From positions 1-40,751 of the IMG/VR virus record IMGVR_UViG_3300031857_000457: a stretch of 40,751 bases of DNA. The stretch is one strand, 5' to 3'. The DNA comes from a virus. The position numbers were made by a program, and so were the translations under genes. Positions 2,818 to 26,339 of the stretch are shown here, in pieces. How positions within the stretch are numbered: the first letter of the stretch is position 1; each line of letters opens with the position of its first letter. The notes under the pieces were generated by a model. The model was not told the origin of the DNA. It ran no database searches and saw nothing but the letters and a program-made list of their open reading frames with translations.

Positions 2818-2993
2818 GCAACGTCATCCCCCTCCGCCCCCACGCGCCCATCGCCCTGCCAGACGACACCATCCGCGCCGACTGCGAACGCCTGATGCGG
2901 AGGCTTGTGCGTGACGGACGCACGCCTGAACGCGAAATGAGATTGTTGGCCGATCTGCTGGACCACATTATTGTGCGGGTGGAGCAACCTTGA
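2814..2993 (+). CDS. Small hypothetical protein, 59 residues
   Basis: ATG 2814 overlaps the preceding stop (ATGA), and its stop TGA at 2991-2993 overlaps the TTG start of the methyltransferase (TTGA). The 59-residue product starts MSNVIPLRPHAP and continues with an amphipathic helical stretch (CERLMRRLVRDG ... REMRLLADLLDHI). The double four-base overlap makes it very likely translated. No family is recognised. Confidence 0.6.
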   Translation: MSNVIPLRPHAPIALPDDTIRADCERLMRRLVRDGRTPEREMRLLADLLDHIIVRVEQP

Positions 2994-3853
2994 GTAAGCC
3001 TCTCGCCATCGACCTGTTTTGCGGCTTGGGCGGCTGGACCGAGGGCCTGCTTGCCGAGGGCTACCACGCGCGCGGTTACGATATTGAAGCGCATGAATAT
3101 GGCGAGGAAAAGTACCCCGGCGAGCTGATCCTTGCCGACGTGATGAGCTTGCACGGCTCGCAGTTCAAGGACGCAGCCCTGATCGTGGCAAGCCCGCCTT
3201 GCCAGGAATTCAGCTACATGGCGATGCCGTGGAGCCGGGCCAAGCAGATCGCGCGGGCCTTGCGGGGTCAGGACACGTTCCCCGAAGGCTACACCGGCTC
3301 ACGCACCATAGCAGAACTGACGGCGCTGTTTGATGCCTGCTTCCGCATCCAGCGCGAGGCGTCGGAAGCTGCTGGGCGGCATATCCCGATGGTGGTCGAG
3401 AACGTTCGTGGGTGCGTCCCGTGGGTCGGGCCAGCCGCATGGAATTACGGCAGCTACTATCTCTGGGGCGATGTGCCGGCGCTGATGCCGCAACGGCTCG
3501 ATGCACTCAAAAACCCCGGTTTCCGCTTTGATGGATCGGGCCGCAGCTTCCAGACCGAGAGCGTCGATCGGCATGTCGCTGAAGGCCGCAAGCATTACGG
3601 CGACTGGTTCAATGATCCACTGTCGCCATCGCGCCAGGGCGGTCAGTCGAAGCCGCGGGAAGGCGTGAAGGGCGCTGGCGCTGGCTGGTTCAACGACGCC
3701 AAGCGCAGCGGCGGAACCGAGACGGGCTACCTGTCCCGCACCGGCAGCAAATCCCCCGCCCGCAAAGCCGCCAGCGCAAAGATAGCGAAGATCCCGCTGC
3801 CGCTCTCGCAATGGATCGCGCGCACGTACAAGCCAGCGAGGCAAGCAGCATGA
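2990..3853 (+). CDS. Cytosine-C5 DNA methyltransferase-like protein
   Basis: 287 residues, TTG start with GGAG 7 nt upstream and a TTGA overlap. Motif I (DLFCGLGG, residues 8-15) binds S-adenosylmethionine. Motif IV is SPPCQEFS with the catalytic Cys at 71, and motif VI is the ENV triplet at 137-139. A clear QxRxR motif VIII is not seen, and the region after residue 190 is Gly/Ser/Lys-rich and low in complexity, so the target-recognition part is divergent or short. No restriction enzyme gene adjoins it. A phage-borne orphan methyltransferase most plausibly protects phage DNA from host restriction; alternatives are an epigenetic role or loss of activity. The methyltransferase fold is well supported, the specificity is unknown. 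Confidence 0.82.
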   Translation: MSKPLAIDLFCGLGGWTEGLLAEGYHARGYDIEAHEYGEEKYPGELILADVMSLHGSQFKDAALIVASPPCQEFSYMAMPWSRAKQIARALRGQDTFPEGYTGSRTIAELTALFDACFRIQREASEAAGRHIPMVVENVRGCVPWVGPAAWNYGSYYLWGDVPALMPQRLDALKNPGFRFDGSGRSFQTESVDRHVAEGRKHYGDWFNDPLSPSRQGGQSKPREGVKGAGAGWFNDAKRSGGTETGYLSRTGSKSPARKAASAKIAKIPLPLSQWIARTYKPARQAA

Positions 3854-3963: not shown

Positions 3964-4394
3964 GTGCAAGTCAAGCAATCGCGCGCCTGCGAGAGTTGCG
4001 GGGCAAGGCGTACAAAGGCAAGTGGTCCGTCAATGGCGAGTTGGGCATTGAGGGTGAGCGGTCAAGCGCGACCGATTACGATCCGCTCGTTATTGGCGGC
4101 TTGAAGGGCGGCAGGGGATATATCGAGTATCCCCATTATTCGCTCTACAGCCAGCCCACGAAAACGGAAGGCAAAGCCAACGCCGCCGCCCGCCTCGACG
4201 AGCTGGAGCGGGAGAATGCGAGGATGCGCGAAGTGCTCAGCGATGCAATTGGCGTGGCGTCTCAGCATCGCGTTGCCGCGCTGGACGCAGAGTTCGGCGC
4301 ACGCGGGGACCGGACCCGCCCCCTGTCTGACGCTGACTGGCACGCATTCCAAGACCGCGCACGCGCAGCACTAGCGGGGAGCGGTGAGAAGTGA
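3960..4394 (+). CDS. Hypothetical early protein with C-terminal coiled coil
   Basis: 144 residues from GTG 3960, chosen because GGGAGGGA lies upstream at the right distance and the start overlaps the previous stop (GTGA); a longer in-frame start at 3933 is not favoured. The N-terminus is basic (RLRELRGKAYKGK). A Gly/Tyr-rich middle follows, then a probable leucine-zipper-like helix (ARLDELERENARMREVL). The coiled coil suggests self-association. I do not recognise the family. Confidence 0.65.
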   Translation: MSASQAIARLRELRGKAYKGKWSVNGELGIEGERSSATDYDPLVIGGLKGGRGYIEYPHYSLYSQPTKTEGKANAAARLDELERENARMREVLSDAIGVASQHRVAALDAEFGARGDRTRPLSDADWHAFQDRARAALAGSGEK

Positions 4395-4813
4395 GCCGCC
4401 TGGAGCCCCTTCTCACCTTGTCGGAGGCCGCAGCCGAGTTGCAGGTCACGACGGATGACGTAGCTGACCCTGTGCGCTGGGTCCGGGACAAGGTAAGGGC
4501 TCTTAAACTGGATGTCGTGAAGGTTGGCCGGACGCCGAAACTGCCGCTCAGAACCGTGGCCGCGCTGAGGGAACTGATTACATGTCGCTACGACTCTGGC
4601 GTCGAGAGGATGGCCGCTCCCCTAACTGGTACGTCATGGGGACCGTCACCGTCTGGCGAAACGGTCGCAAACGCCAGCTTACCATCAAGCCGCAGAGCAC
4701 TCGCACGAGTGATCGAGCTGAGGCAGAAGCGATCCTCCTCCAGATCGCCAGCCGATACCAGCGCGGAAACATTGAGAACCGGGATGCACCCCAGACCTTC
4801 GGCGATCTCGTGA
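4391..4813 (+). CDS. Excisionase/AlpA-like HTH protein with tail overlapping integrase
   Basis: 140 residues, GTG start in a GTGA overlap. Residues 7-65 resemble small MerR/AlpA-type winged HTH proteins: LLTLSEAAAELQV forms the first helices, then a W-V-R-D-K-V-R segment, then VVKVGRTPKLPLRTVAALREL, the usual wing and C-terminal helix. Such proteins next to an integrase are typically excisionases or directionality factors. The frame does not stop after this domain: the last 77 or so codons overlap the first 232 nt of the integrase and encode Ser/Arg-rich sequence that looks like a shadow of the integrase frame. The functional part is probably residues 1-70; the original stop may have been lost. 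Confidence 0.6.
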   Translation: MSRLEPLLTLSEAAAELQVTTDDVADPVRWVRDKVRALKLDVVKVGRTPKLPLRTVAALRELITCRYDSGVERMAAPLTGTSWGPSPSGETVANASLPSSRRALARVIELRQKRSSSRSPADTSAETLRTGMHPRPSAIS

Positions 4814-5664
4814 ATACCTATCTGGATGCCGGTAAATCAGACCGGTATCTCGTGCCGATCCTGCGGGCCTTGGCGGATCTTGAGGTTCCCGAACTGACGC
4901 AGGCCAAGATCGACGCGGAGGCCCGGAAAGCCTACCCAAACGCATCTTCGGCAACGATCCGGCGCCAGTGGCATGGGGTTATCAGCGCCGTGATCAGGCA
5001 CTCCCGCATCCCCTTCGCCCTGACGCTCCCGGAGGGCTCGCGATCGACCACCCGATTTTGCACGCCCAAGGAAGCCGAGGCCATAGTCAGGGAATGCGCT
5101 GCCGGGCGCTACAAGGACGCTTGGAAGCCAGCCCTAGCCGAAACCCTGTTCGGAACCGGATGTCGCGCTGGGGAGGCCATGAAGCTGGATGGCGCGCGGG
5201 ATGTGAGCCTGGAATATCGGACGATGACCTTCCGGGACACGAAAAACGGCACAGAGCGCACGGTTGAGCTATTGCCGCGGACGCTCGCTGCCCTGTCCCG
5301 TCTGGAGAATGTCGGAAGGCCCGGCCCGCTGTTCAGGAAGCCCGGTGGAGGGGCTTATGCCGAGAAGGTAGAGGTGGGAGGCCATCAGCTCCGCTTCCTC
5401 TATGCAGCCGCTGAGAGGGCTGGCGTGCGCGAGTTTCACCCGCACATGACCCGGCACACCTTTGCGACGTGGTATTACGCCCAGACGCATGACACGCTCG
5501 GCCTGCGCCGGCGCTGCGGCTGGCGCCAGCCGTCGATGGTCGATCGCTACACGCACATCGCGCCCGCTCAGATCGGACTGGACGCAATCGCGCTTGGATG
5601 GGATTTCAGGGAGAAAGTTGGAGCGGCATTGGAGCACGCTCAATCGGAGGAGAAAAAGGCATGA
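4582..5664 (+). CDS. int: Tyrosine site-specific recombinase (phage integrase)
   Basis: 360 residues. The catalytic domain is complete: Arg195 in FGTGCRAGEAM, Lys221 in RDTKNGTERT, the box II H-x-x-R-H at 288-292 (HMTRHTFATW), Trp314 in RCGW replacing the second His as in many integrases, and the nucleophile Tyr323 in DRYTHI. The N-terminal part (to about 150) holds an arm-binding-like beta region and the SAM-like core-binding helices. It should integrate and excise the phage at a host tRNA-Ser gene, whose 3' part begins 27 nt after its stop. The 3' end of the gene also contains two copies of a putative arm-type site (5617-5635). Confidence 0.95.
   Translation: MSLRLWRREDGRSPNWYVMGTVTVWRNGRKRQLTIKPQSTRTSDRAEAEAILLQIASRYQRGNIENRDAPQTFGDLVNTYLDAGKSDRYLVPILRALADLEVPELTQAKIDAEARKAYPNASSATIRRQWHGVISAVIRHSRIPFALTLPEGSRSTTRFCTPKEAEAIVRECAAGRYKDAWKPALAETLFGTGCRAGEAMKLDGARDVSLEYRTMTFRDTKNGTERTVELLPRTLAALSRLENVGRPGPLFRKPGGGAYAEKVEVGGHQLRFLYAAAERAGVREFHPHMTRHTFATWYYAQTHDTLGLRRRCGWRQPSMVDRYTHIAPAQIGLDAIALGWDFREKVGAALEHAQSEEKKA
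5617..5635 (+). repeat. Putative integrase arm-type sites, left arm (two copies)
   Basis: GTTGGAGC at 5617-5624 and ATTGGAGC at 5628-5635 are direct repeats whose starts are 11 nt apart, about one helical turn. They lie inside the last codons of the integrase. Three more copies of the same 8-mer lie right of the tRNA-derived segment, so the layout (two sites, core, three sites) resembles the arm sites of lambda-type attP regions. The repeats are seen directly; their role is inferred. Confidence 0.5.
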
Positions 5665-5690
5665 ATATCAATGCCAAATATCTCAACTCC

Positions 5691-5754
5691 GCACCCCTGC
5701 TAAGGGTGTATACCGGTAACGGTATCGAGGGTTCGAATCCCTTCCTCTCCGCCA
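5691..5754 (+). other. attP core: 3' part of tRNA-Ser(GCU)
   Basis: The segment folds as the 3' part of a serine tRNA. Anticodon stem CACCC/GGGTG (5692-5696, 5704-5708) encloses the loop CTGCTAA with anticodon GCT (5699-5701). A long variable arm (TACCG-GTAA-CGGTA), a T arm with TTCGAAT, the acceptor 3' strand CCTCTCC, discriminator G and CCA (5752-5754) follow. The preceding 27 nt do not resemble a D arm or a GGAGAGG acceptor 5' strand, so no complete tRNA is present. Phages that insert in tRNA genes carry such a 3' copy to restore the gene on integration. Identity starts at the anticodon stem, which suggests strand exchange in the anticodon loop. Confidence 0.85.
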
Positions 5755-5830
5755 GCGCTGCCTTGAAAAAACAAGGATTTCCGGTAGACTGGCGCTCTGG
5801 AACGGAGCGCGCGAAATGACGCGCCATGAC

Positions 5831-5889
5831 GCTCCAACCCGGATCAAGACGGGAACATCCGCCCAAGAACATTGGAGTCGCGTTGGAGC
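5831..5889 (+). repeat. Putative integrase arm-type sites, right arm (three copies)
   Basis: An inverted copy GCTCCAAC at 5831-5838 and two direct copies, ATTGGAGT at 5871-5878 and GTTGGAGC at 5882-5889, the latter two again 11 nt apart in their starts. They lie in the gene-free stretch 5755-5916 between the tRNA segment and the first minus-strand gene; the only other thing I see there is a weak 5-bp hairpin with an A-rich loop (5761-5776). Confidence 0.5.
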
Positions 5890-5916
5890 CGGTTGCCCGT
5901 GCGTTCCCCGCAGCCA

Positions 5917-6135
5917 CTAACCCGGCTCCTTGACGTGAACGCGCACGGCCCGCTCTGGTAGCCACCTAGAGCCCGCCTGTACGAAGCACGTATGGTCCCG
6001 CCACTCGTAAGCGAAGCCCGACCTGTGCCACCGCGTATGGCAGTCCTGAGCCATCCCGGTGAGCCAGATACCAGACGCCACGAGCCCGGCAACACCGACG
6101 CTGAGAAGCGCGAGCGTGGCCGGGCTGAGACGCAT
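5917..6135 (-). CDS. Small one-helix membrane protein at the end of the lysis cluster
   Basis: 72 residues from ATG 6135; it starts 4 nt after the stop of the upstream gene. A hydrophobic segment at about residues 5-27 (ATLALLSVGVAGLVASGIWL) could be an uncleaved signal anchor. A Cys/His/Trp-containing tail of about 45 residues (DCHTRWHRSG ... DHTCFV) would then face the periplasm. The lysis-module position and small size suggest an accessory membrane protein, for example an antiholin-like factor, but no motif shows this. No clear ribosome site is seen, so coupling to the upstream gene is likely. Confidence 0.55.
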   Translation of the reverse strand: MRLSPATLALLSVGVAGLVASGIWLTGMAQDCHTRWHRSGFAYEWRDHTCFVQAGSRWLPERAVRVHVKEPG

Positions 6136-6915: not shown

Positions 6916-8033
6916 TTCAGATCCGTCTTCGCTTTGCGCTGCCCGTACTTGTAGAGCGCAAACCCGATGACCACGACGACGAGCCACGTCAGCAGCTCGC
7001 GGTTGCCTTCGTTGTTGATCCACTCACTGACCCCACGCGGCAGGAAGTTCGTGGTGCCTACAGCGGTCACCGCCAAACCCCAGAAGCGCTTTGAAAGCAC
7101 CATGTCCTTCGGCTCGATGCTCGCAGGCGCTGCATCCTTCGGGAGCGGGGGCGGCTTGACGGCTTCAACGGGAGCAGGCGCCGGTCGAGCCGAAGGTACT
7201 GGCTGGGGAGCTGGGACCGTTGGCTTGACCGACACCGCTTCCGAGGAACCACTCGCGGAAGTCTTGATTGCAGTGCCAGCCGACGCTGGGCCGGGCAGCG
7301 GCGCCGGCTGGACCGCCTTGCTTGCGATCGGCACGACCGCAGGCTCAGCTTTGATGGGGGTGGAGAGGACAAGCTCGTCGTCCAGAGGCGGCAGGGCAAA
7401 CCGCTGCGCCACAGAAAGTACGTCCTTGAACTGTGTCTTTGAGAGTACGCGGTCTGTTCCGACATTGCCGGGTGGGCGCTCGCGCACGAGAGCGACAGCA
7501 TCGTCAGCGCAGGCGACAGTCCATGAATAGCCCATCCACAAGCAGGCTTCACTATATCGACGCCTGAGCAATCCACGCAGCGCCTGCTTGTGCTTGCCGC
7601 TTGTTGAGTAGAGCCACGCTCCAAACTGGTCTGCTGCGTCATCGAAGCGATTGGCGTTGACGTGCTTGAGAAGGGTTGAACCGCCGAGGGCGTTGATCCC
7701 GCAGTTAAAGGCGAAGCAGACGAGCGCTGAGAACTGGTTTGAGTTGAGCGGGACCGTCACTAAACGCTTGACCGCGGCTTCATACTCAATGAGCTGATCC
7801 GCCAGAAGCGCCCGCGCGCTTGCCTCGTCGCTGAGCCTGTCGGTTGGCAGAACCTCCATGCCGCCGAAATACTTCGTGCAACCATAGCCAATGGTCAACA
7901 TATCGCCAGGGCAGATGTACGGCTCCATTGCCGCGCCGCCCGGCGTCAACGGAACGCTACCGTCTTGCGGCCCCCGCTCGTACTCGGTGAGAAGTTCTAG
8001 GCCGAACTCGTTCAGCCTGTGATGATCGTTCAC
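6912..8033 (-). CDS. GH24-type lysozyme with Pro/Ala linker and C-terminal membrane helix
   Basis: 373 residues from GTG 8033, picked because it overlaps the Hsp70 stop as GTGA; an upstream GTG at 8045 is the alternative. Residues 10-170 are a phage lysozyme: a likely catalytic Glu in TEYERG (E19), then MLTIGYG, NQFSALVCFAFNCG and a C-terminal RRRYSEACLW helix. These match the FEG...TIGYGH...ALVSFxFNxG pattern, with an insert between the Glu and TIGYG. It should cut the glycan backbone of peptidoglycan. Residues about 225-305 are a Pro/Ala/Val-rich linker. The end (SKRFWGLAVTAVG ... LLTWLVVVVIGFALYKYGQ) looks like small holin-type membrane proteins and has a helix at about 347-363. The fusion to a membrane segment is unusual. 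Confidence 0.85.
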   Translation of the reverse strand: MNDHHRLNEFGLELLTEYERGPQDGSVPLTPGGAAMEPYICPGDMLTIGYGCTKYFGGMEVLPTDRLSDEASARALLADQLIEYEAAVKRLVTVPLNSNQFSALVCFAFNCGINALGGSTLLKHVNANRFDDAADQFGAWLYSTSGKHKQALRGLLRRRYSEACLWMGYSWTVACADDAVALVRERPPGNVGTDRVLSKTQFKDVLSVAQRFALPPLDDELVLSTPIKAEPAVVPIASKAVQPAPLPGPASAGTAIKTSASGSSEAVSVKPTVPAPQPVPSARPAPAPVEAVKPPPLPKDAAPASIEPKDMVLSKRFWGLAVTAVGTTNFLPRGVSEWINNEGNRELLTWLVVVVIGFALYKYGQRKAKTDLK

Positions 8034-9553
8034 GTTGAGCCCCACTCAATGTCGCCGCACATTCCGTAAGCCTCGCCCCGGCTGTTGAGGCCGACCGTGA
8101 ACGGCACGCGAGCGCTGCGCGGGTCGCCCGGCTCAAGCGGAACGTCGATCGAATGCAGCAGCTCGCAGGACGCAGCGCGGTCATGGTCGCCGGCAACGAT
8201 GCGGACAGGCATCACGCTCTGGCCGGGCTCGCGGTTGGTTAGGATGAACGGGAGGACGCGTTCCGATGGGTATGGCGTTCCTCTCGGGATGACCACGGAC
8301 GCCACGCCCTCGACCTTGTCGTAAACCTCGACGGCGATTGACCATGACGTGATGTCGGAGATGGTCAGGTCGGACTTCCGGCCTTCCAGCACAGCAGCAC
8401 GGATGGCTGCGCCGAGCGCCACGGCAATTTCACAGTCGATGTCTGTTTTTGCTTCCTGCCCGAATACCTCTTTCGCCATCGCTTGCACGGCAGGCATCCG
8501 GCTTCCACCGCCGACGAGGACCACGTCGTTTAGATCTCGACGAGCGCTGAAATTGGCGTCCTTCCGCGTAGCCTCTGCGATGGCGACGAGGCACGCCGCG
8601 CGCATCCGCTTCAGAAGGTCTTGCGAGAGATGTTCCAGCAACGGGCGATCGACGGTGTAGTCCATGTGCAAGTCCGTCCCGCCCGGCGAGCGGTCGAAAT
8701 CCTTGATGCGGAACTCGCTCTTGATCTTGCGGGAGAGGCGCTTCTTCACGTCCTCGGATTCCTGAAGAACCAGGCTCATCGCCGTGTCATCGACGGCAAG
8801 GTCCGTTCCCTCGTGATCGGTCGCCCACTGATTGACGATGTACCGGCCCAAGATCGCATCCACATCGGAACCACCCGTGATGCTGGACCCACCTGTGCCA
8901 AGCACAGAGACGAGCCCTGACCCGGTCTGGATGATCGACACATCCGTGGTGCCGCCGCCCACATCGAGGACGGCAATGCGGCGAACCTTTTTGAAATCGT
9001 AGCCGTATGCGAGCGCTGCCGCGGTCGGCTCGTCCATCAGCTCGACATAGGCAAGGCCAGCCATCCGACCAGCTTCCTCGACGGCCTTGCGCTGGCTTGG
9101 GGAGAATGTCGCCGGGACACAGATCACCGCCGCATCCGGCTTCTCGCCCTTCCACTTTGCCGTCGCCGCATCAAGCAGCTTGGCAATGAGCATCGAGCAG
9201 ATTTCAACGGGGCTGTACGTGTGTCCGTCCGGTCCTTGATAGTGCAGCGTGCCATCGGGAGCGCCTACCGTCTGGTAGCCCTGATCTTCGTCCGGGTGCC
9301 ACATTTCACCCAGCTTCCGCTTTGCCAGCCTGAAGCAGAAATCGGGGAAACGCTTGCCGCTTTCGATGCCATCAAGGCCGACGAATATCTGGCTCTCGCC
9401 CGGCCCTACGGCGTCAGCGGGGACGATAGTGACGACCGAAGGCATGAGCGGCGAGCCATCTACAGAGATGACTTCTGGCACGCGCCCGTTGTACCAGGCG
9501 ATGCTGCTGTTCGAGCTACCTAAGTCGATTCCGACCACGCGAGAGAGTTTCAT
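8030..9553 (-). CDS. Phage-encoded Hsp70 (DnaK-like) chaperone, shortened C-terminus
   Basis: 507 residues; ATG 9553 overlaps the previous stop (ATGA). The ATPase domain (1-392) has every Hsp70 hallmark: phosphate-1 loop GIDLGSSNSS (8-17), a conserved Lys in LAKRKLG (78-82), DEPTAAALAYG (174-184), phosphate-2 loop DVGGGTTDVSI (197-207), GGSDVD, and the adenosine loop VLVGGGSRMPAVQ. Residues 395-507 keep the start of the beta substrate-binding domain (LTISDITSWSIAVEV, then VVIPRGTPYPSERVLPF). The alpha-helical lid and the terminal tail of DnaK (about 638 residues) are absent. ATP hydrolysis is expected; client binding may be weak or specialised. No DnaJ or GrpE gene lies nearby. Its neighbours are a membrane protein and a lysozyme, both coupled by 4-nt overlaps. 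Confidence 0.93.
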   Translation of the reverse strand: MKLSRVVGIDLGSSNSSIAWYNGRVPEVISVDGSPLMPSVVTIVPADAVGPGESQIFVGLDGIESGKRFPDFCFRLAKRKLGEMWHPDEDQGYQTVGAPDGTLHYQGPDGHTYSPVEICSMLIAKLLDAATAKWKGEKPDAAVICVPATFSPSQRKAVEEAGRMAGLAYVELMDEPTAAALAYGYDFKKVRRIAVLDVGGGTTDVSIIQTGSGLVSVLGTGGSSITGGSDVDAILGRYIVNQWATDHEGTDLAVDDTAMSLVLQESEDVKKRLSRKIKSEFRIKDFDRSPGGTDLHMDYTVDRPLLEHLSQDLLKRMRAACLVAIAEATRKDANFSARRDLNDVVLVGGGSRMPAVQAMAKEVFGQEAKTDIDCEIAVALGAAIRAAVLEGRKSDLTISDITSWSIAVEVYDKVEGVASVVIPRGTPYPSERVLPFILTNREPGQSVMPVRIVAGDHDRAASCELLHSIDVPLEPGDPRSARVPFTVGLNSRGEAYGMCGDIEWGST

Positions 9554-14645: not shown

Positions 14646-17600
14646 TTAGTTGGCTGGTGGCGGGCCGAAGAAGATGGCCGCAGGGTTGTCAGTCTCGCCG
14701 TTGAAGTAAGCCTGCGCGCCGCGGATCGACGCATCCACCTGGCTAGCCGGATAATGCAGGACGATGCCGAGCGCGCGGTTGGCAGGACGCCAGAAGTTCT
14801 TGTCCAGCCCGCCTTCCTCTTCGTCGATGATCTTGCCCTCTGCCACAGCAGATCCGAGCTGGTTCATCACGTCGAAGAACATGAGGCCGGCAGGCCCCTT
14901 GTAGCCGTAGCTGTCATCGCCTCGAGCAGAGCCTGCAAACTGCGAGATGCCGACGAAGGGGCCGAACAGGAAGGCGATCTGCTCGCGTGCGTACTTCTCC
15001 GCCCACTCCTCCGGCTCATCGTCCTCGCCCACGCCCTTGGTGATCAGGTCCAGCGCCATCTTGCCCGCGACCGGGACGGCAGCGAGGATGATCATGTCGA
15101 AGCCCAGCGCCATGATCTGTCCCATCGTCCTCGCATTGCGCACGCGCTGGATGCCAAGGTTGTAGGTCGTGATCATGTAGCTCATAAAGTTGGTCAGGAT
15201 GCGCAGCAGGGCGCCGTACTTGACCCCTGCCCCGGACTGCATGGCCGCAAGCTGGTAAATCTCGCCCCCGCCCTGCGCATCGACAACGGCCTGGTCAGCC
15301 ATCGCGACAGCATCTTCCTCGGACGCGCCCGTGCTTTGCGCCTTGAAATACGCGCCCCACCATGTCGGCACATCGACGGATGCAAACTGGACGTTCGACA
15401 TCAGCGCAAAGCCGTTGCGAACCATGAAGTTGTGCATCGCCCGCAGTTCGCGCGGGATGAACCGGGCGATGAAGTCTGGCGTCCACTTGCTTTTCATGGC
15501 GTCCAGCAGGGAAGCCATCTCCGGGCTCTGGTTCTGGCGCCGGTTGCGCATGAACTCGGACTTGCGCATGGCGTCTCGAGCAGCCGTGTAGAGCGGAACC
15601 CCGCCGCCAGCCGTCTTTGCGTATCCCATCGCCACCCACGGCCCGCCGACACGGACGATCGAGTTGGATGCGCCGAGGATCTGGAGCGATGCAGTCGCCA
15701 CCTTCCACGACAGGCCAACCACGGTCGCTCCGTTGCGGAGGTGAGCCAGAAGCCCAGACGTTCCATCCATCCCGAACTTGGCGGTGATGATCTGGTTGAC
15801 GACCTGGTTGTAGATCTGCCGGCCATGACGGCTGATGATGGCTTCCTCGACGGCGGGCTGCTTCAGGATGCGCCCGATATCGAACAGCGTCTCTTCCGTG
15901 GCGATCGACTTGGCGACCTCGTCCAGATGCTGCGTGATGACATCCAGAGCGGACAGGCGCAGCGGCAGCGTGACCTTGCCCTCGACGCGCTTCTTGCCAA
16001 AGCCGGGCTGCGAGCGTGTGCCAATGCCACCCGTCTGCCGCTTGGCGTCCGCTTCCATCGCCCGCTGGCCTGACTTCGAAGACGTGCGCGGGTCATACTT
16101 GATCGGATAGTATCCGCCACGATAGATGCCGAAACGTGTCGCAACCTGGAGCGGCTCGACCTTGTCCATCGGCGCAGCGTGGACCGCCTCATGCACGCGG
16201 TTGGCTTCAGGGAACCATGTGTCCATGTAGTCCCAGACGCTCTGCACCCAGTCCCAGTCGCGCTTCTCAAGCGAGTCGAGAACCTCCTGAACCTGCGCGT
16301 CGTTCCACCCATAGGCGTCCATGATGCGCTGGCGGTTCTTCTCGTTGCCCCAGTTGAGCGCGATGGCGAGACGGCCCTGCGTGGTCAGCGATCGGCCAAT
16401 GCCTGCGAACTGGCGACGATCGCGGTAGAAGCGTTCCTGCTCTGCGGTCGTGTAGACCCCGAACAGGCCAGCGACATCCTCGCCCATCTGCTTGCGGATC
16501 GTGGTGAGCTTGCCGAACGCTTCGTTGAGCGGCCTGACGATATAGCGCCAGAACACCCCGCCTTCCTTGCCGCCCGCGAACTGGTGCGCCAGCGATTGCA
16601 ACGTCCGGTGCATGGCGAAGTACATCTGGATCGAGGTCTTCACCTTCTCGCCAGGCGTGTCGGTTTCCAGCGGCTCTGGGCCTTTATCGTTCGGCTGGTT
16701 CGCCTCGATCTCTTCAGCGATATCCTCTGCCGCGAGCGACAGCTTCCGACGCTCGCCGTCCTTGATCAGCCGGTCCTTCAGGGTCGCGAGACGCCAGATC
16801 AGGTCGGCCTCGTCGCGTACCGCCAGAAGCTCCTGCACCGTGATCGACTTGTAGTTCTGCGCATCCACGCCATCCGAGAGGCGGGCAAGCACGCTGCTGC
16901 GCTCGATCGCTTCAGCCGCTGCGATCTGCTGCTGCTCTACAGATAGCGTCGGATCGGCGTAGGCTGCGAACGGGTCGATGCCCGCCATCTGCGTCTGGAT
17001 CCACGCCGATCGCGCCTGACGCTGGTTCTCCGCCTTCCGGCTTTCGTTGCGGAGCTGGTAGTCCGACAGCAGCCCGCGCATGTTCTCGGCGTATTCCTTG
17101 CCGGCAGAGAACAGCCGCGCCAGCTTGGACTTGCTCTCATAGGCAAGCAGGTGCTTGCGGGTCTTCTCGATCTGCTCCGCGAGCTTCTTGCCCTCGGAAT
17201 ACATATACGAGTTCAGCAGCCGGTACTTCGCATACTCCGCAGCCTTGGCCGGGTCTTTCTCCTTGATCGCCTTCTCGGACCAGCGGCGTTCGAGCGTGAG
17301 GTACTGGTTGTAGTTCAGCACCTCGCGGACCTGTTTGGAGCGGAGGTTCTCGATCGCCTGCTGTTTCAACGCGTTGGTCGCAATGCGCTGCCCGCCTGCC
17401 TCGGCAAGCGCTTCCAGTTCGATCTCCCACTGGCGATGCTGAAGCTCATTGCGGGCGTATTCCTCGGCCTTCGCCATGATGGTCCCGTCACGGAACACAT
17501 CGCCATTGCGCTCGATCATGCGGCGGCGGGTTTCCTCACGGATCAGCTTGTCACGCAGCGGGCCTTGCTTCAGGCCGTCGAGCAATGCTTTGCCGTTGGG

Positions 17601-20600
17601 CATCTTGAAGAACGGGGCTGCTTCATCCGGGCCGATCGCGTTCTCGCCCTGTCCGGTCAGCATCACGGCCAGCTTGGCGCGTAGGGCCGCTGTATCCTTC
17701 TCGTGGATGTTGATGTCGTTCTGGTCGAACCAGGCTTCCCAGCGTTCAGCGTTGGCGATCATGCTGACGGTCGGGATGTCGTCGCGGCGGTAGCGCGGGG
17801 CCTGCCCGTCAATGTCGGCGCGCAGCGTGTCGAGGAATTGCGCCGGCGTCGGCAGCTCTTCCCCGTCGAAATAGCCAGCCTCCCATGCGGCTTCGATGGC
17901 CTGCTGCATGTCATAGGAGCGCGAGCGCTTGCTGTCTTTCGTCGGGTCTGCGATCAGCCCGCGCGCGGCCTTCTTCTCGCCAATGATCTTCAGTATCTCG
18001 CCGTCCGTGTCGCGGATGCCCCTGTAGCTGATACGGCCCTCGCCCTGTCCGATGTTGCGCGGCGTCGAGAGGAATTTCCACAGCGACTTGGGCGGCGTCT
18101 CGTTCAGCGTCTTGCGGATGTCGCGGACTGTCGCAAGGTACATATCGACATCGTTCGCGGTCGCGCTGAAGGCTGCAACCTCGGGCGGGATTTCTGCCAG
18201 CGCCTGTTCGCCATACTGCTCGCGGACGGCTTGCAGGTTGAGGCGCATCAGGGGGAGATCAGCGGGCGGGGTGGTTGTTCCCTTGCCGGTCTTTGTCTGG
18301 AAGAGCGGGAAGCCTCTGGAGAGTATCTTCGCTCGCATCTGCGGCGTGATCTGCATCGTGTAGACGGTTGCGCCGTTCGGGTAGTCCGCAGACTGCACCG
18401 TCGAGACCTTGACCTCGGCGCCCATCTGGCGCGCGATCTTCTCAAGCGCACCGCGCACGTTGGTTTCGTAATGCTGCGCCGCGTCAGCGTTGCCCTGAAT
18501 GATCGTGGATGTCTGCGCTGTCGGAACCGACACGCTGCCCATCCGCTGCTTGGCCGCTTCAAAGACAAGAGCCCGAACACCAGCGTTGACCCAAGTGGAC
18601 GTGCGCGCAAGCAGGGGCGCGGTCAGCATGGAATCGATGTCGTTCTGGACCGCCTCTTCCGCCTCGGCGCGCGTCTTGCCCAAGCGGGTCATGTAGACCT
18701 GAATTTCGCTTTCTCGGTTGCTCTGCATCGCCTCCTTTTCTCGGCGCAGTTGCTGGGCTTCGTCCGACTGCAACTGGCGCAGGAAGAGGGACTTGTTCCC
18801 ATCAGCATCCTTGCGGACAGACCAGAGGATATTGACGACCTCGCCCGGCTCGCCGGAATGCGTGGACCCGGTCAGGTCATCATGAAAGCGAGCGGGGAGC
18901 AGCATGCGGATTTCGCCGCTCTTTGTTGCCTCTCCGTCAAGATCGTAATCCTCGGGCTCCAGACGCCGAGAGCCGTTGCCATACGAGCCCTTGTCCACGA
19001 GAGGAATGCTATCGGCCAAGTCTTCGCGTGTCGTCTTGCGAATGACCGTTTCTTCGCCAAGGTCCGCAAACAACTCGCCAATCCGATTCTGGACCGCGTA
19101 CTTGACGCTTGACGTGAGCAGTAGGTTTTCGGCCTCCGCCGCTGGGATGACTTCATAAACGCCAAGACGGATAGTGATGGTTTCTACCAGCGGCTTATCT
19201 TTGAGCCCCAGGTGAGTGAAACTCCTGTAGACAGGAATATCGACTGACGAGACGCGCATCGGGTCGCCGCTATACCCGATCACCATCTCGTCTTCCTTGA
19301 ACTGAAGGACGATTGTGTCTCCGTCTGACGTGTCCAGCGTGAATGTGCGAACGCCGCGTTCAACGCGGGGCTCAACCCAGCGATTGGCGAACCAGCCGCG
19401 ATCATGCAGGCTGAGCGACTCCCAAAGCTGCCGCTTGTTCATCTTGCGGATCGCAGCCCGCGCCTTCGCCGGATCGAAGATGGCGTCTGCCCGCTCGATC
19501 ATGATGCGGTTGGCGTCTATGATATCCAGAACGACGGAGCGAAGCTCAGCGCCTTTCAGCGGCTCGCCCGCCTCGCGCTGCGCTTCAGCCACGGCGTCAT
19601 CAAGGCCGAGCTGGTCAAGCTCTTCGAATGTCGGTCGTGACGTTCCTCTGCCCTTCGCCAGCGAGTTGCGCGCTGCCTGCCAGCCCATCTGCCAGATGCC
19701 ATCGGGAACGCGCTGTGCGGCTTCCTGCGCTGCGCTGTAGAAGCCCATCGCGTCGAGTTGGCGGGGGGCTACGGTTTGGGCTAGGCTTTGGGGGCCGGTC
19801 CCCGCATCCCCACCGAGAACGTCTCCACCGGGTTCTCCGCGCGCGGCTTCTCGTACCTGGCGATCTGCGCTCTCAAGCCCTGAACGAATGGCGTCTCCTT
19901 GCCACCGTTGGCCGTCAGGCGCCTTTGCAGGGCTTCCTTCAGATATTCCAGCTGAGATGCCATCAATCTTCTCTTGATACTGGTGACTGAAAGCCACTTG
20001 CGTATCGTACCAGAATTGACCAGCAAAAGAAACGCCTTCGACGGTTTCAGACACGCGATCGGCAATGGCTTCTAGCTCGTCCGCCTTCTGTTTGATCTTA
20101 GCGGCAAGCGCCGCATCGTCCAACCCACTCAGGTTGTCCATGCCGTAACGCTGTTCAAATTCAGGGACATACTGCAGGCGAACGCCGACAGCGGCTGGCA
20201 TCGCCCCGCCCATGCTTTCGGCCATCCGGCGACCGTCAACAATCACGGTCAAAAACTCAACACCCTCTTTAGCCAGGTCGGCCAGCACCTTCTCAAGTTG
20301 TTCCTTCGATGCGGCGCTGCGAAGGTAGATCTCGACGCCGGGCCGGTGCCGCAGCGGATCGAACTCCTCACCCGCCCGCAGAACGCGCGAGAGGAACGTG
20401 CTGTCCTGGCGGGCAGCTTGGGCCTGAACAAGCATTTCACGCCATAGCGTGTTGGCGTTGTAGCCCTCACGCGCGACTACCTCGAGATCCAGCGAACGCT
20501 CGGCCCCGCCGTAACGTCCCTCAGTCGATAGCGCCTTGGAGCCCAGCACCGCGCTTTTGTCGTCGGCCTCATAGATAGCCTGACGGACGGCAGCTCCCAG

Positions 20601-23600
20601 CCGCGCCATGTCGGAATCGGTCGGCACAAAGTCGATGCCCTGCGTGTCCTGCGACATCTGGATCGACAGGCCACCAACAAATCGATCGACCTCACGCTCC
20701 AGCGCCGCAAGTTCGCCCTTCGCCGCCACCTTCTCCAAGGCGAGGCTTTCGAGCTTGGCCTTGGCCCGCTCCACATTGGCAAGCAATCGGGTTGCTTCAG
20801 CCGGCGGGCGAACGATCTTGCCCAGTTCCGCCATGCGCTTCTTGGAGCCCTTGACCTCGCCCGACTCCAGCTTGCGCAGCTCTTCGATCTCGTCAGCGTG
20901 CTTGGCCTCGTGGTCCTCGATCGCCTTCAGCGCGGGAGCCGTATCCTGGTTCGCCGCTGTTACGGTCGCGGTTGGTGCGGAGGCGTCGATAATCCTGCGA
21001 AGCTCCTTGACGCGCTCCTGCTGAGAGGTGCCGGTAAGGTTGGCCTCAAGTTCAAACGAGCCGCCCTCGCCTGCGGAGTTCGTCCAGTTGTTGATCGTCC
21101 AGATTTCCTTCTCGATAAACCAGACAACGGCTTGCAGGTCGTCATCGTTGATCTCGGCAAGGCCGGCGTCGGTTTGCAGTTCGGGGTCGGCGCGAATGGC
21201 CGCAACCGCTGCAGTGAATGCGTCCTGCCCAAACCCGAATTGCAGCGTCGTCGATCCATCCTCCCGCATATCCCCGGAGAGGCTGACCTCGACCATGCTG
21301 GGCAGGCGCCGCCCGCCAGTCAGGCGTTGCAGAAGACGCGCAGCCCAGACATCGATCGTGGCCCTTGAGCGGAACCCAATCAGGTTGCCGCTGAAGTTGA
21401 GCGCCTTGGGCGCCGTGCCGCCCCGGGCAATGTCGGGGTCGGAGTTCTTGACGACACGCCACAAGTCAACCATCGCGCGGATGACGTTCTTGCCGTTGAA
21501 CCCGTACTTGGCATCCGATTCCTTGGTCGGAAGCAGGCTGTCGGATATCTCACGGGCATCGCGCACTGCAGCGAGCTTTGCCTTGTACTCGGGCAGCGCC
21601 TTGATCTTGTTCTTGCCCAGGCCCTCGTCCAACCGTTCGTTGAACCAGGCGCGAAAGTCCGTTTCAACGGCGTCGAGATTATCGGCCCACGCTTCCCATT
21701 GCAGGATCAGGCCGTCGAAATCGCCGCGGCTGGCACGACGCAGCGCCTCGACCGCGTTAGCCCAGTTGCCCCGCACTGGCGTGTTTGGGCTGGTGGCCCC
21801 GAGGAGATCCGCGAAAAGGTCGCCGAGGCCACCGAACTCGTGCCGCAGGCGCGTCCGCATGGCCTTGTACCAGCCAGCCTGCGCGAGGATGTTCTGCGCG
21901 TTCTTGTCGCCATTGGCGGCTCGGCGAAACACCGAGCGCACCTCTTCAAGCATTGACCGCGCGACACTGTTGACGCGCCGATCGTAGGCGGCAGTCCCAG
22001 GCTCTAGCTGCCTGCCGTTGGAGTCGGAGCTGAAGGTATACGGCACGTTCTGGTACTGGTGCGCAACCTTGCCCTTCTCGATCTCGGTACGCACGTAAAC
22101 CAGCGGAGCCCAGCCTTGAGCTATCGGGTGCGCGGCCTTGTGAGAGCGCACGGCATCCGTAATCTCGCGCACAGAGAGGCCCGTCTCAGCAGCAGAGGCG
22201 TTGATCGCTTCTCGCTCTGCCGCGGAAATCGCAACACGCTCTGCCAGGGTGCGCTCGCCACGCTCCGCAACCATCTGCAGTCGCTCGATGGCCTTTGCCT
22301 GCTCGGTCTGCGGCAGCGACCGCATTGCATCAGCCTCGGCAGCAGCTTCCTCCGCTGCCGCCTCGCGCGTATCGCGATACTGGCCCGTCGAGAGCCAGTA
22401 GAACGCCCGCTGCTCAGGCCGCTCGTCGATCTCGGACTGGACTTCGCGACGGACTTCGCGCTCCTCATCGGTCCACGCTGACTTCTGCGTGCGCTGGTAC
22501 TCGTCCATCAGGCGGGCCATGAGCGCAGCCTCAGCGCGTTCACGGGCTGCGGCGTACCGTTCCCGCATACGCTCCAGAAACTTCTCCTTGCGCTCCGGCT
22601 TCCACAGGCCCTTGGGGTCTTGCGCCTTGAGGATTGCCTGCGCCATCGCCTCGCCGTCGCGCGCAATCCCGACATGCACCGCCTTGATGGCTTCGTCGGT
22701 CGCGAGCATCCGGTCGAACACCTGCCGGATTTCATCGTTGAGGTTCGCCCTGCCACCAATGCGGGAGACGAGCCCCTTGTAGATGCTCAGCAGCCATTGC
22801 TTGAAGCTGGCGAACACAGAGCGGAGCGCCGTTGTGGGAGCCTTGCCGTCCATGAGGTAGGCTTCGAAACTCTCGGCAAAAGCCTCTTGCAGTTCGACGC
22901 CCTGCTTCGTGAACGAGCCGTCCGCGTTGAACATCGCGTCCCAGTTCGGGGACTTGCCGTGCCATTCGAGGACGGCTGCAAGCTGCTCCAGCACGAACGG
23001 GTGCGGGTTCTCGGTCTTCGACATCCGCCAGAGGGTGTCGAGATACCAGTGCGATCCTTCGTGGGCGAGGGTGGAGAGGTTGGCGCTTTCGAACAGGCGG
23101 ACCACATTGCGGTCGGCGCGGGGGGTGAAGTCGCCGCGTGTCTCTTGAGCTAGAATAAACGGGTCATCATAAGCGTTGCGAAGCACGCCGTCCGGTGTGG
23201 CAATGTCAACTTCGTTCAGCGCTTCCTGCCACCGATCATATGCCTCTTCATTCTTGCGATCGCGCTCTGCGTCGGCGGCTTCCTGTTTTTTCTCAGCCTT
23301 CGCAGTGAGCTTGGCTATCTCCCTTTCGTAGGCAGCATCCTTCTTGGCGTCAGCCTTCTCTTCGGCCTTCTCTATGGCCTTGTCACGCGCGCCTTCGGCC
23401 TTCTCTATGAGGGCGTCGAAGGTAGCTTGAGCCTTTTCTATTTTGTCGTCGAATGCGGCCTCGGCTTTGTCTATTGCGGCCTGAAATGCCGCGTCGATGC
23501 GCGCTTCTGTCTCTGGATCGATATTGTCGCCGTCGAGTTCGCTATACGCCTCGTCAACAACATCTTGAGCGGCGGACTCAGCGGCTACCTGGACGACCTT

Positions 23601-26339
23601 CGCGGCGCTTTCCGCATCCGTGAAAGCAGCCTGCGCTGCCTCTTCGGCGGCTAAGTACTTGGCTTCGGCGGCTTCCGTTTCAGCCTCAACGAATGCGTCA
23701 CGCTCAGCGTCAAGCTTCTCGTCAAGCGCATCTTCAGCCGCAGTCCGCTCATCGTCTATCGCATTGGCGAGCGTCTCGTGTTCAGCGTCATTGGCCGCGA
23801 CCTCGTCCTCATACTCCTTGTTGAGCGCCTCCCACTCCGAGACATCGGCTCCCATTTCTTTGGCGCGCTTCAGGCGGGCCTCATCCGAGATATCCAGATC
23901 GCCAGTCTCTTGCGCCAGAGACTTCGCGCCTTCCAGCGCCGCGCGCCGCTCCTCGATCTTCGCCTTGTGCTTCGACGCCAGAGCCTTGACGCGGTTGGTC
24001 GCGGTCTTCGCATCAGCGTCGGGATAAAGCGCCGTCGCTATCTCCGCATTGCTGGAGCCCTTGGCGCGCATGTCGATAAGGCGCTGCGTCGGGGTGGCGT
24101 CTTCTGCAATCGACTGCGGCAGTGCGCCAGCTTCCGGCTGCTCGCCCGACAGGGACGCGACGATGTCGAAGCCCTGCTCTTTCCACAGCGTCTCGGGGTC
24201 AACGCCCGTCCGCAGGGCCAGCGTCTCGACCATCGAGCCAACAAGCTCTGCCTGCGTGTTGGCTGCATCCGCGTTGAAGATGCCCGTGGCTGTAACCTGC
24301 TCGCGGATCGTGTTGCGGACCCGGTCGCCGCTGTCGGCAAATGCCTGATCCGTCGAGCGCCGATCCTCGCGCGCCGTGGCCTCTGCCTCGAATGCCGCCT
24401 TCGCCGCTTCGCTCTCGCGCGCCGTGAAATCATCAGCACGAAGCCGCATGTCGGGCGCGAACGCCTGATGCATCGTCTCGCCAGAGACGCCGATCTCCTT
24501 CATCGACGTGGACAGGCCGGCAGCGTAGTTCCCAGCAGGGATAACCACATCCTCGCCGGTATCGATCGCCGTGACCATCTCGTTCGGGTCGATGCGGAAC
24601 GCCTGCGCAATCTGCTCGACGCTGACGCCCTTTTCCTGCGCCAATGACGTGATGGCTTCAGGCGCGATCCGGACGCTTTCCAGCGGGCCGTCCTTCGTGA
24701 CCTGGTTGACCAGTTCCCGGTATTTCTCGGGCAGGCGCTTCAGCAGCTTCGAATCCTTGGCATTCTGCGCCATCGCGTCGAAGGTCTTGGAAAGCTGTTC
24801 GGTGCGCTTCTGTCTCGCGTTCTTGTCGATCTGGTCGCCCGCAGCCTGCACGCCCTGCGCAACCGTCGTCGTGACGCCTGACATGATGGTAGACGCAACG
24901 AGCGTCTCGAGGGCAGCGTTCGGACGTTCAGCCAGGAACTCGCCCAGCGTCTTGTCGGGGTTCAGTTCGATGAACGTCGAGGCGTCCTGAAGGAATGTCG
25001 CGACCTGTTCGGTAATGCCTTCAGCAGCAGCCTGCCGGAAGAACGTCTTGGCGAACGAGCTATCCTTTGCCAGATCGTCCACGAGGAACTTGAGCGGAAT
25101 GAACTCGGTCGCCGTCTCGATGCCGCCTTGCGTCAGACCGTAGATCAGGCTGTCAGCGAATGACTTGCCGGCGTCACGCGCCTCACCGAAAGCGCCGCCC
25201 GCAGTCGTGGCGCCCATCGAGCCAGCGCCCACCACAGGGCTTTTCGTGATGGCCGTGATGATGACGGACGTGATCGTGGACGGGGCAGATTGCGCTGCGC
25301 CATAGATACCGCGCTCAAGCCATGTCTCGCCTACAGGCGCGTTCGCCTTGCCGCGGATAGCAGCTTCGCGCCGCCGCATGTCGGCGCTGAGCGCGCGATC
25401 GATCTGCTCGTTCACCAGCCCGAACTTGCCCGGAAACCAGTCGGGAAGGGCCTTGTAGATTTCCATGTTGGATTCGGCCAGCATCTGGTCGAGGCCGTAA
25501 AGCTGCTCAGGGATCTTGTCCACGAAGCCGGATTGCAGCGCCTGCCCGACCTTATCCAGCGACAAGTTGCCGGGGCTGAAGAACGCCTGCGTCTGCTCCC
25601 ACCAGCCGAGGTTCTCGACATCATCGTGGGCGACCTCGAGGTTGATCGGATCGTCCAGCCAGCTTCGCAGCTTTGGTGCGCTCGTGCGCGCAAAGTCGAG
25701 TTGCGACAGCACGTCCATCTTGCGGAAGGCTTCAACGTCGCTCTCGACTTCAGCGCGATTGGCGCCGGTCCTGTTCGCAAGGTCCAGCGCCTCAGCGGCC
25801 TGATCAGGCGTGCTGGTCTGGCCCAACAATGCGCTGCGTGTGCGCAGGTTGGATTGATCGCCATCGCGCTTGTCGCGATACGCCTTCATCTCGGCAATGT
25901 CTTCAGGCGTCAGTCCTGCTACGGGACGCTCTGGCCCGCCCGAGCCCATGCCGACAAAGCTCTCCCCTTCCGGGGCCGCTGGCATCGCGAGTTCGGGCGT
26001 CCAGTTGTCAGGCCCGCCAAATCCCTGCTCGTCACGCATCGGATCGTCAATGTCGGGAGCGCCCATGCGATTGAACACGCCGCCCGGTAGGGCATCCGCG
26101 TTTGGCTGCGGGTCGCCATTCGTCCTGACACGCCAGCCGCCCGTCACGGGCTCTGGGGCATCGATCGGTGATGTCCCGCCATTCGGATCGAACCGCTTGA
26201 CCGGCGTGTTCATCAGCTCCTTGAGCTTCGCGTCGGACTTCTCGCGATAGCGGCGCGCTTCCTCGATGTCGCGCTGCTCCTGCCCAGCGCGATCGACCTC
26301 GACAACGCGAGATGCGGATGAGAATGGGATGACTGGCAT
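14646..26339 (-). CDS. Giant polyvalent internal virion/ejection protein with HEXXH metallopeptidase
   Basis: 3897 residues in one uninterrupted frame, at the T7 gene 16 position. Regions: hydrophobic Gly/Ala segments near 350-385; a long Ala/Glu coiled coil (about 830-1046); a zinc metallopeptidase with HEGSH at 1093-1097 and a likely third ligand in EAFAESFEAYLMDGKAP (E1152 or E1156); a block at about 1460-1770 with LLGATSPNTPV and TIDVWAARLLQ resembling an uncharacterised phage family (possibly DUF7178-like); a block near 2480-2690 with LRQLQSDEAQQ and terminal GFPLFQ, a module common in phage polyvalent proteins; a helical C-terminus (about 3100-3897) resembling LPD38-type polyvalent domains. 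It is probably injected with DNA. I see no T7/N4 RNA polymerase motifs and no SLT transglycosylase motif. Confidence 0.85.
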   Translation of the reverse strand: MPVIPFSSASRVVEVDRAGQEQRDIEEARRYREKSDAKLKELMNTPVKRFDPNGGTSPIDAPEPVTGGWRVRTNGDPQPNADALPGGVFNRMGAPDIDDPMRDEQGFGGPDNWTPELAMPAAPEGESFVGMGSGGPERPVAGLTPEDIAEMKAYRDKRDGDQSNLRTRSALLGQTSTPDQAAEALDLANRTGANRAEVESDVEAFRKMDVLSQLDFARTSAPKLRSWLDDPINLEVAHDDVENLGWWEQTQAFFSPGNLSLDKVGQALQSGFVDKIPEQLYGLDQMLAESNMEIYKALPDWFPGKFGLVNEQIDRALSADMRRREAAIRGKANAPVGETWLERGIYGAAQSAPSTITSVIITAITKSPVVGAGSMGATTAGGAFGEARDAGKSFADSLIYGLTQGGIETATEFIPLKFLVDDLAKDSSFAKTFFRQAAAEGITEQVATFLQDASTFIELNPDKTLGEFLAERPNAALETLVASTIMSGVTTTVAQGVQAAGDQIDKNARQKRTEQLSKTFDAMAQNAKDSKLLKRLPEKYRELVNQVTKDGPLESVRIAPEAITSLAQEKGVSVEQIAQAFRIDPNEMVTAIDTGEDVVIPAGNYAAGLSTSMKEIGVSGETMHQAFAPDMRLRADDFTARESEAAKAAFEAEATAREDRRSTDQAFADSGDRVRNTIREQVTATGIFNADAANTQAELVGSMVETLALRTGVDPETLWKEQGFDIVASLSGEQPEAGALPQSIAEDATPTQRLIDMRAKGSSNAEIATALYPDADAKTATNRVKALASKHKAKIEERRAALEGAKSLAQETGDLDISDEARLKRAKEMGADVSEWEALNKEYEDEVAANDAEHETLANAIDDERTAAEDALDEKLDAERDAFVEAETEAAEAKYLAAEEAAQAAFTDAESAAKVVQVAAESAAQDVVDEAYSELDGDNIDPETEARIDAAFQAAIDKAEAAFDDKIEKAQATFDALIEKAEGARDKAIEKAEEKADAKKDAAYEREIAKLTAKAEKKQEAADAERDRKNEEAYDRWQEALNEVDIATPDGVLRNAYDDPFILAQETRGDFTPRADRNVVRLFESANLSTLAHEGSHWYLDTLWRMSKTENPHPFVLEQLAAVLEWHGKSPNWDAMFNADGSFTKQGVELQEAFAESFEAYLMDGKAPTTALRSVFASFKQWLLSIYKGLVSRIGGRANLNDEIRQVFDRMLATDEAIKAVHVGIARDGEAMAQAILKAQDPKGLWKPERKEKFLERMRERYAAARERAEAALMARLMDEYQRTQKSAWTDEEREVRREVQSEIDERPEQRAFYWLSTGQYRDTREAAAEEAAAEADAMRSLPQTEQAKAIERLQMVAERGERTLAERVAISAAEREAINASAAETGLSVREITDAVRSHKAAHPIAQGWAPLVYVRTEIEKGKVAHQYQNVPYTFSSDSNGRQLEPGTAAYDRRVNSVARSMLEEVRSVFRRAANGDKNAQNILAQAGWYKAMRTRLRHEFGGLGDLFADLLGATSPNTPVRGNWANAVEALRRASRGDFDGLILQWEAWADNLDAVETDFRAWFNERLDEGLGKNKIKALPEYKAKLAAVRDAREISDSLLPTKESDAKYGFNGKNVIRAMVDLWRVVKNSDPDIARGGTAPKALNFSGNLIGFRSRATIDVWAARLLQRLTGGRRLPSMVEVSLSGDMREDGSTTLQFGFGQDAFTAAVAAIRADPELQTDAGLAEINDDDLQAVVWFIEKEIWTINNWTNSAGEGGSFELEANLTGTSQQERVKELRRIIDASAPTATVTAANQDTAPALKAIEDHEAKHADEIEELRKLESGEVKGSKKRMAELGKIVRPPAEATRLLANVERAKAKLESLALEKVAAKGELAALEREVDRFVGGLSIQMSQDTQGIDFVPTDSDMARLGAAVRQAIYEADDKSAVLGSKALSTEGRYGGAERSLDLEVVAREGYNANTLWREMLVQAQAARQDSTFLSRVLRAGEEFDPLRHRPGVEIYLRSAASKEQLEKVLADLAKEGVEFLTVIVDGRRMAESMGGAMPAAVGVRLQYVPEFEQRYGMDNLSGLDDAALAAKIKQKADELEAIADRVSETVEGVSFAGQFWYDTQVAFSHQYQEKIDGISAGISEGSPAKAPDGQRWQGDAIRSGLESADRQVREAARGEPGGDVLGGDAGTGPQSLAQTVAPRQLDAMGFYSAAQEAAQRVPDGIWQMGWQAARNSLAKGRGTSRPTFEELDQLGLDDAVAEAQREAGEPLKGAELRSVVLDIIDANRIMIERADAIFDPAKARAAIRKMNKRQLWESLSLHDRGWFANRWVEPRVERGVRTFTLDTSDGDTIVLQFKEDEMVIGYSGDPMRVSSVDIPVYRSFTHLGLKDKPLVETITIRLGVYEVIPAAEAENLLLTSSVKYAVQNRIGELFADLGEETVIRKTTREDLADSIPLVDKGSYGNGSRRLEPEDYDLDGEATKSGEIRMLLPARFHDDLTGSTHSGEPGEVVNILWSVRKDADGNKSLFLRQLQSDEAQQLRREKEAMQSNRESEIQVYMTRLGKTRAEAEEAVQNDIDSMLTAPLLARTSTWVNAGVRALVFEAAKQRMGSVSVPTAQTSTIIQGNADAAQHYETNVRGALEKIARQMGAEVKVSTVQSADYPNGATVYTMQITPQMRAKILSRGFPLFQTKTGKGTTTPPADLPLMRLNLQAVREQYGEQALAEIPPEVAAFSATANDVDMYLATVRDIRKTLNETPPKSLWKFLSTPRNIGQGEGRISYRGIRDTDGEILKIIGEKKAARGLIADPTKDSKRSRSYDMQQAIEAAWEAGYFDGEELPTPAQFLDTLRADIDGQAPRYRRDDIPTVSMIANAERWEAWFDQNDINIHEKDTAALRAKLAVMLTGQGENAIGPDEAAPFFKMPNGKALLDGLKQGPLRDKLIREETRRRMIERNGDVFRDGTIMAKAEEYARNELQHRQWEIELEALAEAGGQRIATNALKQQAIENLRSKQVREVLNYNQYLTLERRWSEKAIKEKDPAKAAEYAKYRLLNSYMYSEGKKLAEQIEKTRKHLLAYESKSKLARLFSAGKEYAENMRGLLSDYQLRNESRKAENQRQARSAWIQTQMAGIDPFAAYADPTLSVEQQQIAAAEAIERSSVLARLSDGVDAQNYKSITVQELLAVRDEADLIWRLATLKDRLIKDGERRKLSLAAEDIAEEIEANQPNDKGPEPLETDTPGEKVKTSIQMYFAMHRTLQSLAHQFAGGKEGGVFWRYIVRPLNEAFGKLTTIRKQMGEDVAGLFGVYTTAEQERFYRDRRQFAGIGRSLTTQGRLAIALNWGNEKNRQRIMDAYGWNDAQVQEVLDSLEKRDWDWVQSVWDYMDTWFPEANRVHEAVHAAPMDKVEPLQVATRFGIYRGGYYPIKYDPRTSSKSGQRAMEADAKRQTGGIGTRSQPGFGKKRVEGKVTLPLRLSALDVITQHLDEVAKSIATEETLFDIGRILKQPAVEEAIISRHGRQIYNQVVNQIITAKFGMDGTSGLLAHLRNGATVVGLSWKVATASLQILGASNSIVRVGGPWVAMGYAKTAGGGVPLYTAARDAMRKSEFMRNRRQNQSPEMASLLDAMKSKWTPDFIARFIPRELRAMHNFMVRNGFALMSNVQFASVDVPTWWGAYFKAQSTGASEEDAVAMADQAVVDAQGGGEIYQLAAMQSGAGVKYGALLRILTNFMSYMITTYNLGIQRVRNARTMGQIMALGFDMIILAAVPVAGKMALDLITKGVGEDDEPEEWAEKYAREQIAFLFGPFVGISQFAGSARGDDSYGYKGPAGLMFFDVMNQLGSAVAEGKIIDEEEGGLDKNFWRPANRALGIVLHYPASQVDASIRGAQAYFNGETDNPAAIFFGPPPAN

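Follow-up and report, generated by a model that had tools for sequence, protein, structure and literature searches.

The window analysed here is a whole linear IMG/VR contig of 40,751 bp, without an end repeat, in which a portal-like gene runs to the right edge of the record and the tail gene has its nearest counterparts in BcepC6B, phiV10 and pelagiphages. The plus-strand frame at 2990-3853 is C5 cytosine methyltransferase-like and matches the first quarter of PF00145 alone (residues 7-77), and on the minus strand a single open reading frame of 3897 aa (14646-26339) takes up almost 30% of the record. The minus-strand gene at 8030-9553, which adjoins the endolysin gene, was at first read as a terminase; this reading was dropped for that of a 507-aa DnaK/Hsp70-like protein (NF001413, 3.3e-85, below the curated cut-off), found at 76-97% identity in 14 viral contigs and unexpected by us for a phage of about 40 kb. 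The region between the methyltransferase-like and the DnaK-like genes contains the following features.

4418-5916, no strand assigned: integrase/attP cassette, exchanged as a whole for different integrases and attPs in the most closely related phages
4582-5664, plus strand: tyrosine integrase gene (int), 360 aa, PF00589 at 4.8e-19
5617-5635, plus strand: left (P-arm) putative arm-type pair GTTGGAGC-N3-ATTGGAGC, 11 nt start to start
5690-5754, plus strand: proposed attP core, tRNA-Ser(GCU) from the anticodon stem to CCA, 65 bp, exact match to four chromosomal genes
5692-5696 and 5704-5708, plus strand: stem CACCC/GGGTG flanking the anticodon loop
5697-5703, plus strand: anticodon loop CTGCTAA, predicted 7-nt overlap for strand exchange (exchange point inferred)
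5755-5761, plus strand: GCGCTGC, by which the core extends into the host flank; identical in the genome L016
5831-5838, minus strand: fifth repeat copy, inverted GTTGGAGC, candidate extra arm site, 77 nt past the tRNA end
5871-5889, plus strand: right (P'-arm) putative arm-type pair ATTGGAGT-N3-GTTGGAGC, starting 117 nt past the tRNA 3' end

The int gene ends just ahead of the core and includes the left pair in its coding sequence. Its product carries the R-K-H-R-H/W-Y signature of the tyrosine recombinases, with R195, K221, H288, R291, W314 and Y323 invariant in a nine-member alignment. The AlphaFold2 model built from an alignment of 36 window and viral sequences (pLDDT 92), used instead of a single-sequence fold that was poor (pLDDT 42), comprises a predicted beta3-alpha N-terminal domain at residues ~4-64 (strands 4-7, 16-26 and 29-39, helix 45-64), followed by the core-binding and catalytic domains. 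Such a three-strand-plus-helix N-terminal domain has been described for arm-binding integrases (PMC8138268), and Foldseek matched the model to Tn1549 Int, XerH, XerA and the full-length lambda Int 1z1b (E 2.1e-7). The N-terminal domain was not called by Pfam; the predicted structure nevertheless points to an arm-binding domain of the kind found in the lambda/Tn916/L5-type integrases. The relatives of the integrase were obtained by a six-frame genome search and by a profile scan, which returned 80 viral contigs, while exact-peptide scans of the viral and genome contigs gave no match.

The core sequence, CGCACCCCTGCTAAGGGTG...CTCTCCGCCA, is 100% identical to the 3' part of the tRNA-Ser(GCU) genes in four alphaproteobacterial metagenome-assembled genomes (MAGs; L016-L019) of the Hyphomonadaceae type, two of which bear this family name in their titles, and in the Lake Erken MAG L016 the identity extends over 72 bp (5690-5761, BLASTN). 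Thus, the tRNA-Ser 3' half recognised in the preliminary description, which had proposed a search of host genomes for genes with this exact 3' end, is an exact copy of chromosomal sequence over 65-72 bp, so that integration would restore the tRNA. ARAGORN reported no tRNA in the whole window, as expected for a core that is only part of a tRNA gene, and a 36-nt core pattern scan of the viral contigs gave no match. A near-identical second tRNA in G015 (C67), considered as an attR, proved to be complete and to lie among the same genes, and it probably reflects MAG strain variation. The identity with attB begins at 5690, 7 nt 5' of the anticodon loop, which is the same tRNA nucleotide at which the 70-bp repeat of the integrated relative in genome G173, described below, begins. 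Integrases using anticodon stem-loops exchange strands in the loop, and by analogy the exchange most likely takes place in CTGCTAA (5697-5703).

The 8-mer RTTGGAGY occurs around the core at 5617, 5628, 5831 (inverted), 5871 and 5882; re-measurement bore out all these previously reported positions and strands, as well as the start-to-start spacing of 11 nt in both the left and the right pair. The five copies, spanning 273 bp, are five of the eight in the window, and this window-wide count is unremarkable and alone has little meaning, being 8 against 4.4 expected, with at least 8 reached by 9 of 100 shuffles. Within the 273 bp, about 0.027 copies are expected from the base composition against the 5 observed. 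When the region 5590-5960 was shuffled with dinucleotides preserved, any 6-mer with at least five copies appeared in 2.1% of the shuffles, and two separate 11-nt-spaced pairs of one 6-mer in none of 2000. The left pair lies within the 3' coding end of int, 80 nt ahead of the anticodon loop, in a part encoding a protein tail that is unconserved among the family members; it is not a peptide repeat because 11 nt is not divisible by three. The inverted copy at 5831 matches perfectly, and among eight other elements a comparable one was found only in that of genome G037, 44 nt ahead of the right pair versus 40-41 nt in the window; in our judgement it may be a real site, with doubt somewhat the stronger.

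The closest relative of the integrase, with 46% identity over the full length, belongs to the integrated element of G173, which has an intact tRNA-Ser(GCU) at one end and, about 28.7 kb away at the other, the int homologue, behind which the 3' part of the tRNA is repeated exactly over 70 bp; both attL and attR were thus observed at a single tRNA in this relative. Over the 74 kb examined there, GTGCAG-N5-GTGCAG is present as a pair at exactly two places, in the int 3' end, 79 nt ahead of the anticodon loop, and 116 nt past the tRNA end, the corresponding distances in the window being 80 and 117 nt. In G126, where the element occupies a tRNA-Thr, TTGGGCAA pairs stand at 80 and 117 nt and solely at the two ends of the element, and in G091 pairs of another motif of its own stand at 81 and 116 nt. 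The right pair starts at 116 nt also in G359 and G341, where the integrase is oppositely oriented relative to the tRNA, and lies closer in some relatives, namely at 97 nt in G308 and G370, whose left pairs are at 81 and 77 nt, respectively, and at 108 nt in G037 (tRNA-Arg), all five following the same plan with motifs of their own. All these distances are to be read with a register uncertainty of ~2 nt between different motifs, and the members of G359/G341 and of G308/G370 are similar pairs that are not fully independent.

A lysogen of the phage itself was not found: among the four genomes with the matching tRNA-Ser, there was one distant integrase match (26%), on another contig, and a search for prophages of its type across 398 genomes from the order yielded four tail matches, of which the best (G181) lies on a 15-kb contig with a capsid match and without an integrase relative. 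The exact 8-mer was not found in the relatives either, and it is the layout alone that recurs. The preliminary description would have given up its reading if the 8-mer were absent around the attP of close relatives; the letters are indeed not kept but the arrangement is, and such a test must, therefore, be applied to the geometry. As a separate observation, G432 (L090) and the Sinorhizobium meliloti pSymB sequence L086 carry a reversed 5' part of tRNA-Ser(GCU) downstream of a related int, where integration seems to employ this anticodon loop too, in reverse orientation.

An unbiased scan was made of 59 int 3' regions (58 viral contigs and the window) for two tandem pairs that resemble each other and stand on opposite sides, at spacings from 8 to 20 and with a threshold of at least 36/42. 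The only spacing standing out is 11 nt, at which 10 regions, the window included, reached the threshold, as compared with 0-1 at each of the 12 other spacings, while in most of the 58 viral relatives the same scan gave no clear two-sided pair. In the int 3' ends of 16 family members, an 11-nt pair with at least 7/8 matches is present in 7, where 0.37 would be expected and none of 1000 shuffles gave more than 4. The clearest viral case is L160, in which a tRNA-Thr 3' part has CCGTGCAAAATCCGTGCA to either side; the right arm of this contig (L160:1918-1991) contains at least six tandem CGTG-type sites, including CCGTGAA and CCGTGCA pairs, which is more than in the window. Because the relatives repeat 11-nt pairs at the same positions and the scan singles out this spacing, both pairs in the window are well supported as arm-type sites, and the comparison thus places repeated putative arm-type sites on both sides of the core, as in an attP.

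The backbone similarity between the window and its closest phage relatives ends at 4394-4417 and resumes at 5917 (L006) or 6052 (L004), and the viral contigs sharing the DnaK-like gene have other integrases and attPs in this slot where their int region is present; by these break and resume points, int and both arms behave as one exchanged cassette. In the phage relative L005, whose integrase is of another type, TCGGGACTATGTCGGGA pairs flank a tRNA-Leu part on both sides. The contigs L002, L004, L012 and L005, with integrases of other kinds, have a tRNA-Leu 5' part beside 11-nt-spaced pairs, and integration there would replace the 5' part of the tRNA, and probably its promoter too.

The repeats might instead be sites of some other DNA-binding protein, such as an excisionase, a repressor or an autoregulator of int, that flank the core by chance. 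Binding to repeats in one arm is common among excisionases, and an inverted copy like that at 5831 would fit a regulator; however, excisionase sites are usually confined to one arm, whereas the same pair stands here on both sides of the core, and pairs recur at both ends of the integrated relatives and in the int 3' ends, their motifs changing from one integrase to the next, which makes this explanation quite improbable. The record is linear and without end repeats, and tandem prophages can hold an attP-like internal junction, so that the window could also be read as a junction of integrated or tandem prophages or as a chimeric assembly. Against this stand the phage genes on both sides, the backbone common to both sides of the slot in L002-L006 and L012, and the presence of both arms, since only one arm would be expected at an attL or attR, as is seen in G173; we hold such an origin to be very unlikely. 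The same flanking genes and common backbone, together with the match of the core to chromosomal tRNA-Ser(GCU) genes, uphold the earlier assignment to attP rather than to attL or attR. A merely accidental clustering of the 8-mer, with meaning in the tRNA core alone, might appeal to the unremarkable window total of 8 and to the choice of the 8-mer after the fact, but the 0/2000 shuffles and the recurrence of the layout in independent relatives contradict chance for the two pairs and leave this account next to no probability.

The segment 5617-5889 is, therefore, with high confidence interpreted as the intact attP of a temperate podovirus-like phage of aquatic Hyphomonadaceae-type Alphaproteobacteria, whose integrase would use paired arms and an anticodon-loop exchange with the host tRNA-Ser(GCU) gene. 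In this mechanism, the N-terminal domain of the integrase would bind the paired arm-type sites at 5617/5628 and 5871/5882, and the catalytic part would bind the core half-sites formed by the anticodon stem. The strands of attP and the host gene would be exchanged in the anticodon loop, after which the phage-borne 65 bp would rebuild an intact tRNA beside the right arm, giving attL, and attR would arise beside int, where the displaced 3' part of the tRNA would come to lie. What we infer here is that the integrase binds the pairs, where precisely the strands are exchanged, and that factors for bending or excision are needed; in a search for IHF sites nothing rose above background, with only 2-mismatch IHF-like strings between the core and the arms, a kind of string of which the window has 97.

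Similar plans have been described in several systems, the likeness to most of which is one of attP layout alone. In the Cluster J mycobacteriophages Omega and BAKA, attP is located 3' of int, ~100 bp away, with a core starting in the anticodon loop of the tRNA and with direct arm-type repeat pairs P1/P2 and P3/P4, one on each side (PMC3706429). The window shares the position of attP, the core from the anticodon loop and the paired direct arms on both sides, but differs in the tRNA (tRNA-Ser instead of tRNA-Leu), the motif (RTTGGAGY instead of TGCATAC..), the host (Alphaproteobacteria instead of Actinobacteria) and the place of inverted copies, which lie at the start of int in Cluster J and, as one copy, in the right arm here. 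Paired direct arm-type sites are also found in the attPs of Pixie, Giles and L5, where Pixie has two on the left and three on the right plus one inverted (PMC3203893); the direct pairs are alike, while the number and orientation of the extra sites differ, and these phages are likened to the window by attP layout alone. The same basis of attP layout alone applies to the alphaproteobacterial ICEMlSymR7A of Mesorhizobium (IntS), with a 283-bp attP and five arm-type motifs that are all reported to be required for efficient integration (PMC11963761), which is a conjugative element with the motif TGKTGGTATC and not a phage.

Lambda has five arm-type sites bound by a heterobivalent Int with an N-terminal arm-binding domain (PMC4880445; PDB 1z1b, 5j0n), and the window agrees with it in the total of five (putative) sites and in the (predicted) N-terminal domain. 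Unlike lambda, it has a tRNA-gene core, two tandem pairs rather than P1,P2 and P'1-3, and no recognisable IHF site. Hence the lambda-type plan of two left and three right arm sites claimed previously is supported as regards the 11-nt pairs, which are found at both junctions (attL and attR) of integrated relatives as well as in intact viral attPs, and the predicted lambda-like N-terminal domain, whereas the third right site (5831) is weak, and the arrangement is closer to the paired type of L5, Giles and Omega than to that of lambda. On the whole, the earlier interpretation was largely right. Since paired arms are known in Cluster J and in L5/Giles/Pixie, and five motifs in ICEMlSymR7A, both the mechanism and the plan are already known, and by this analogy the attP of the window is an ordinary one of the lambda/L5 type.

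The contribution of the comparison is how little the geometry varies across an alphaproteobacterial integrase family with changing arm motifs and tRNA targets. The proposed geometry would place the left pair 77-81 nt before the anticodon loop, within the coding end of int, and the right pair mostly at 116-117 nt past the tRNA 3' end, with 11 nt within the pairs; that it is fixed while the arm motif shifts from integrase to integrase and the tRNA target varies is a reading for and against which, from the sequences compared, we see about equal grounds. If it is true, the arm motifs would be readable by position in any member and could be matched to residues of the N-terminal domain. The attP-int module is complete and supported by comparison, with tRNA-Ser(GCU) as a clear candidate target; no such module was found described for freshwater Hyphomonadaceae-type Alphaproteobacteria, and it could become a site-specific integration vector, while a constant spacing with a drifting motif may offer a route to predicting arm-site specificity from sequence.
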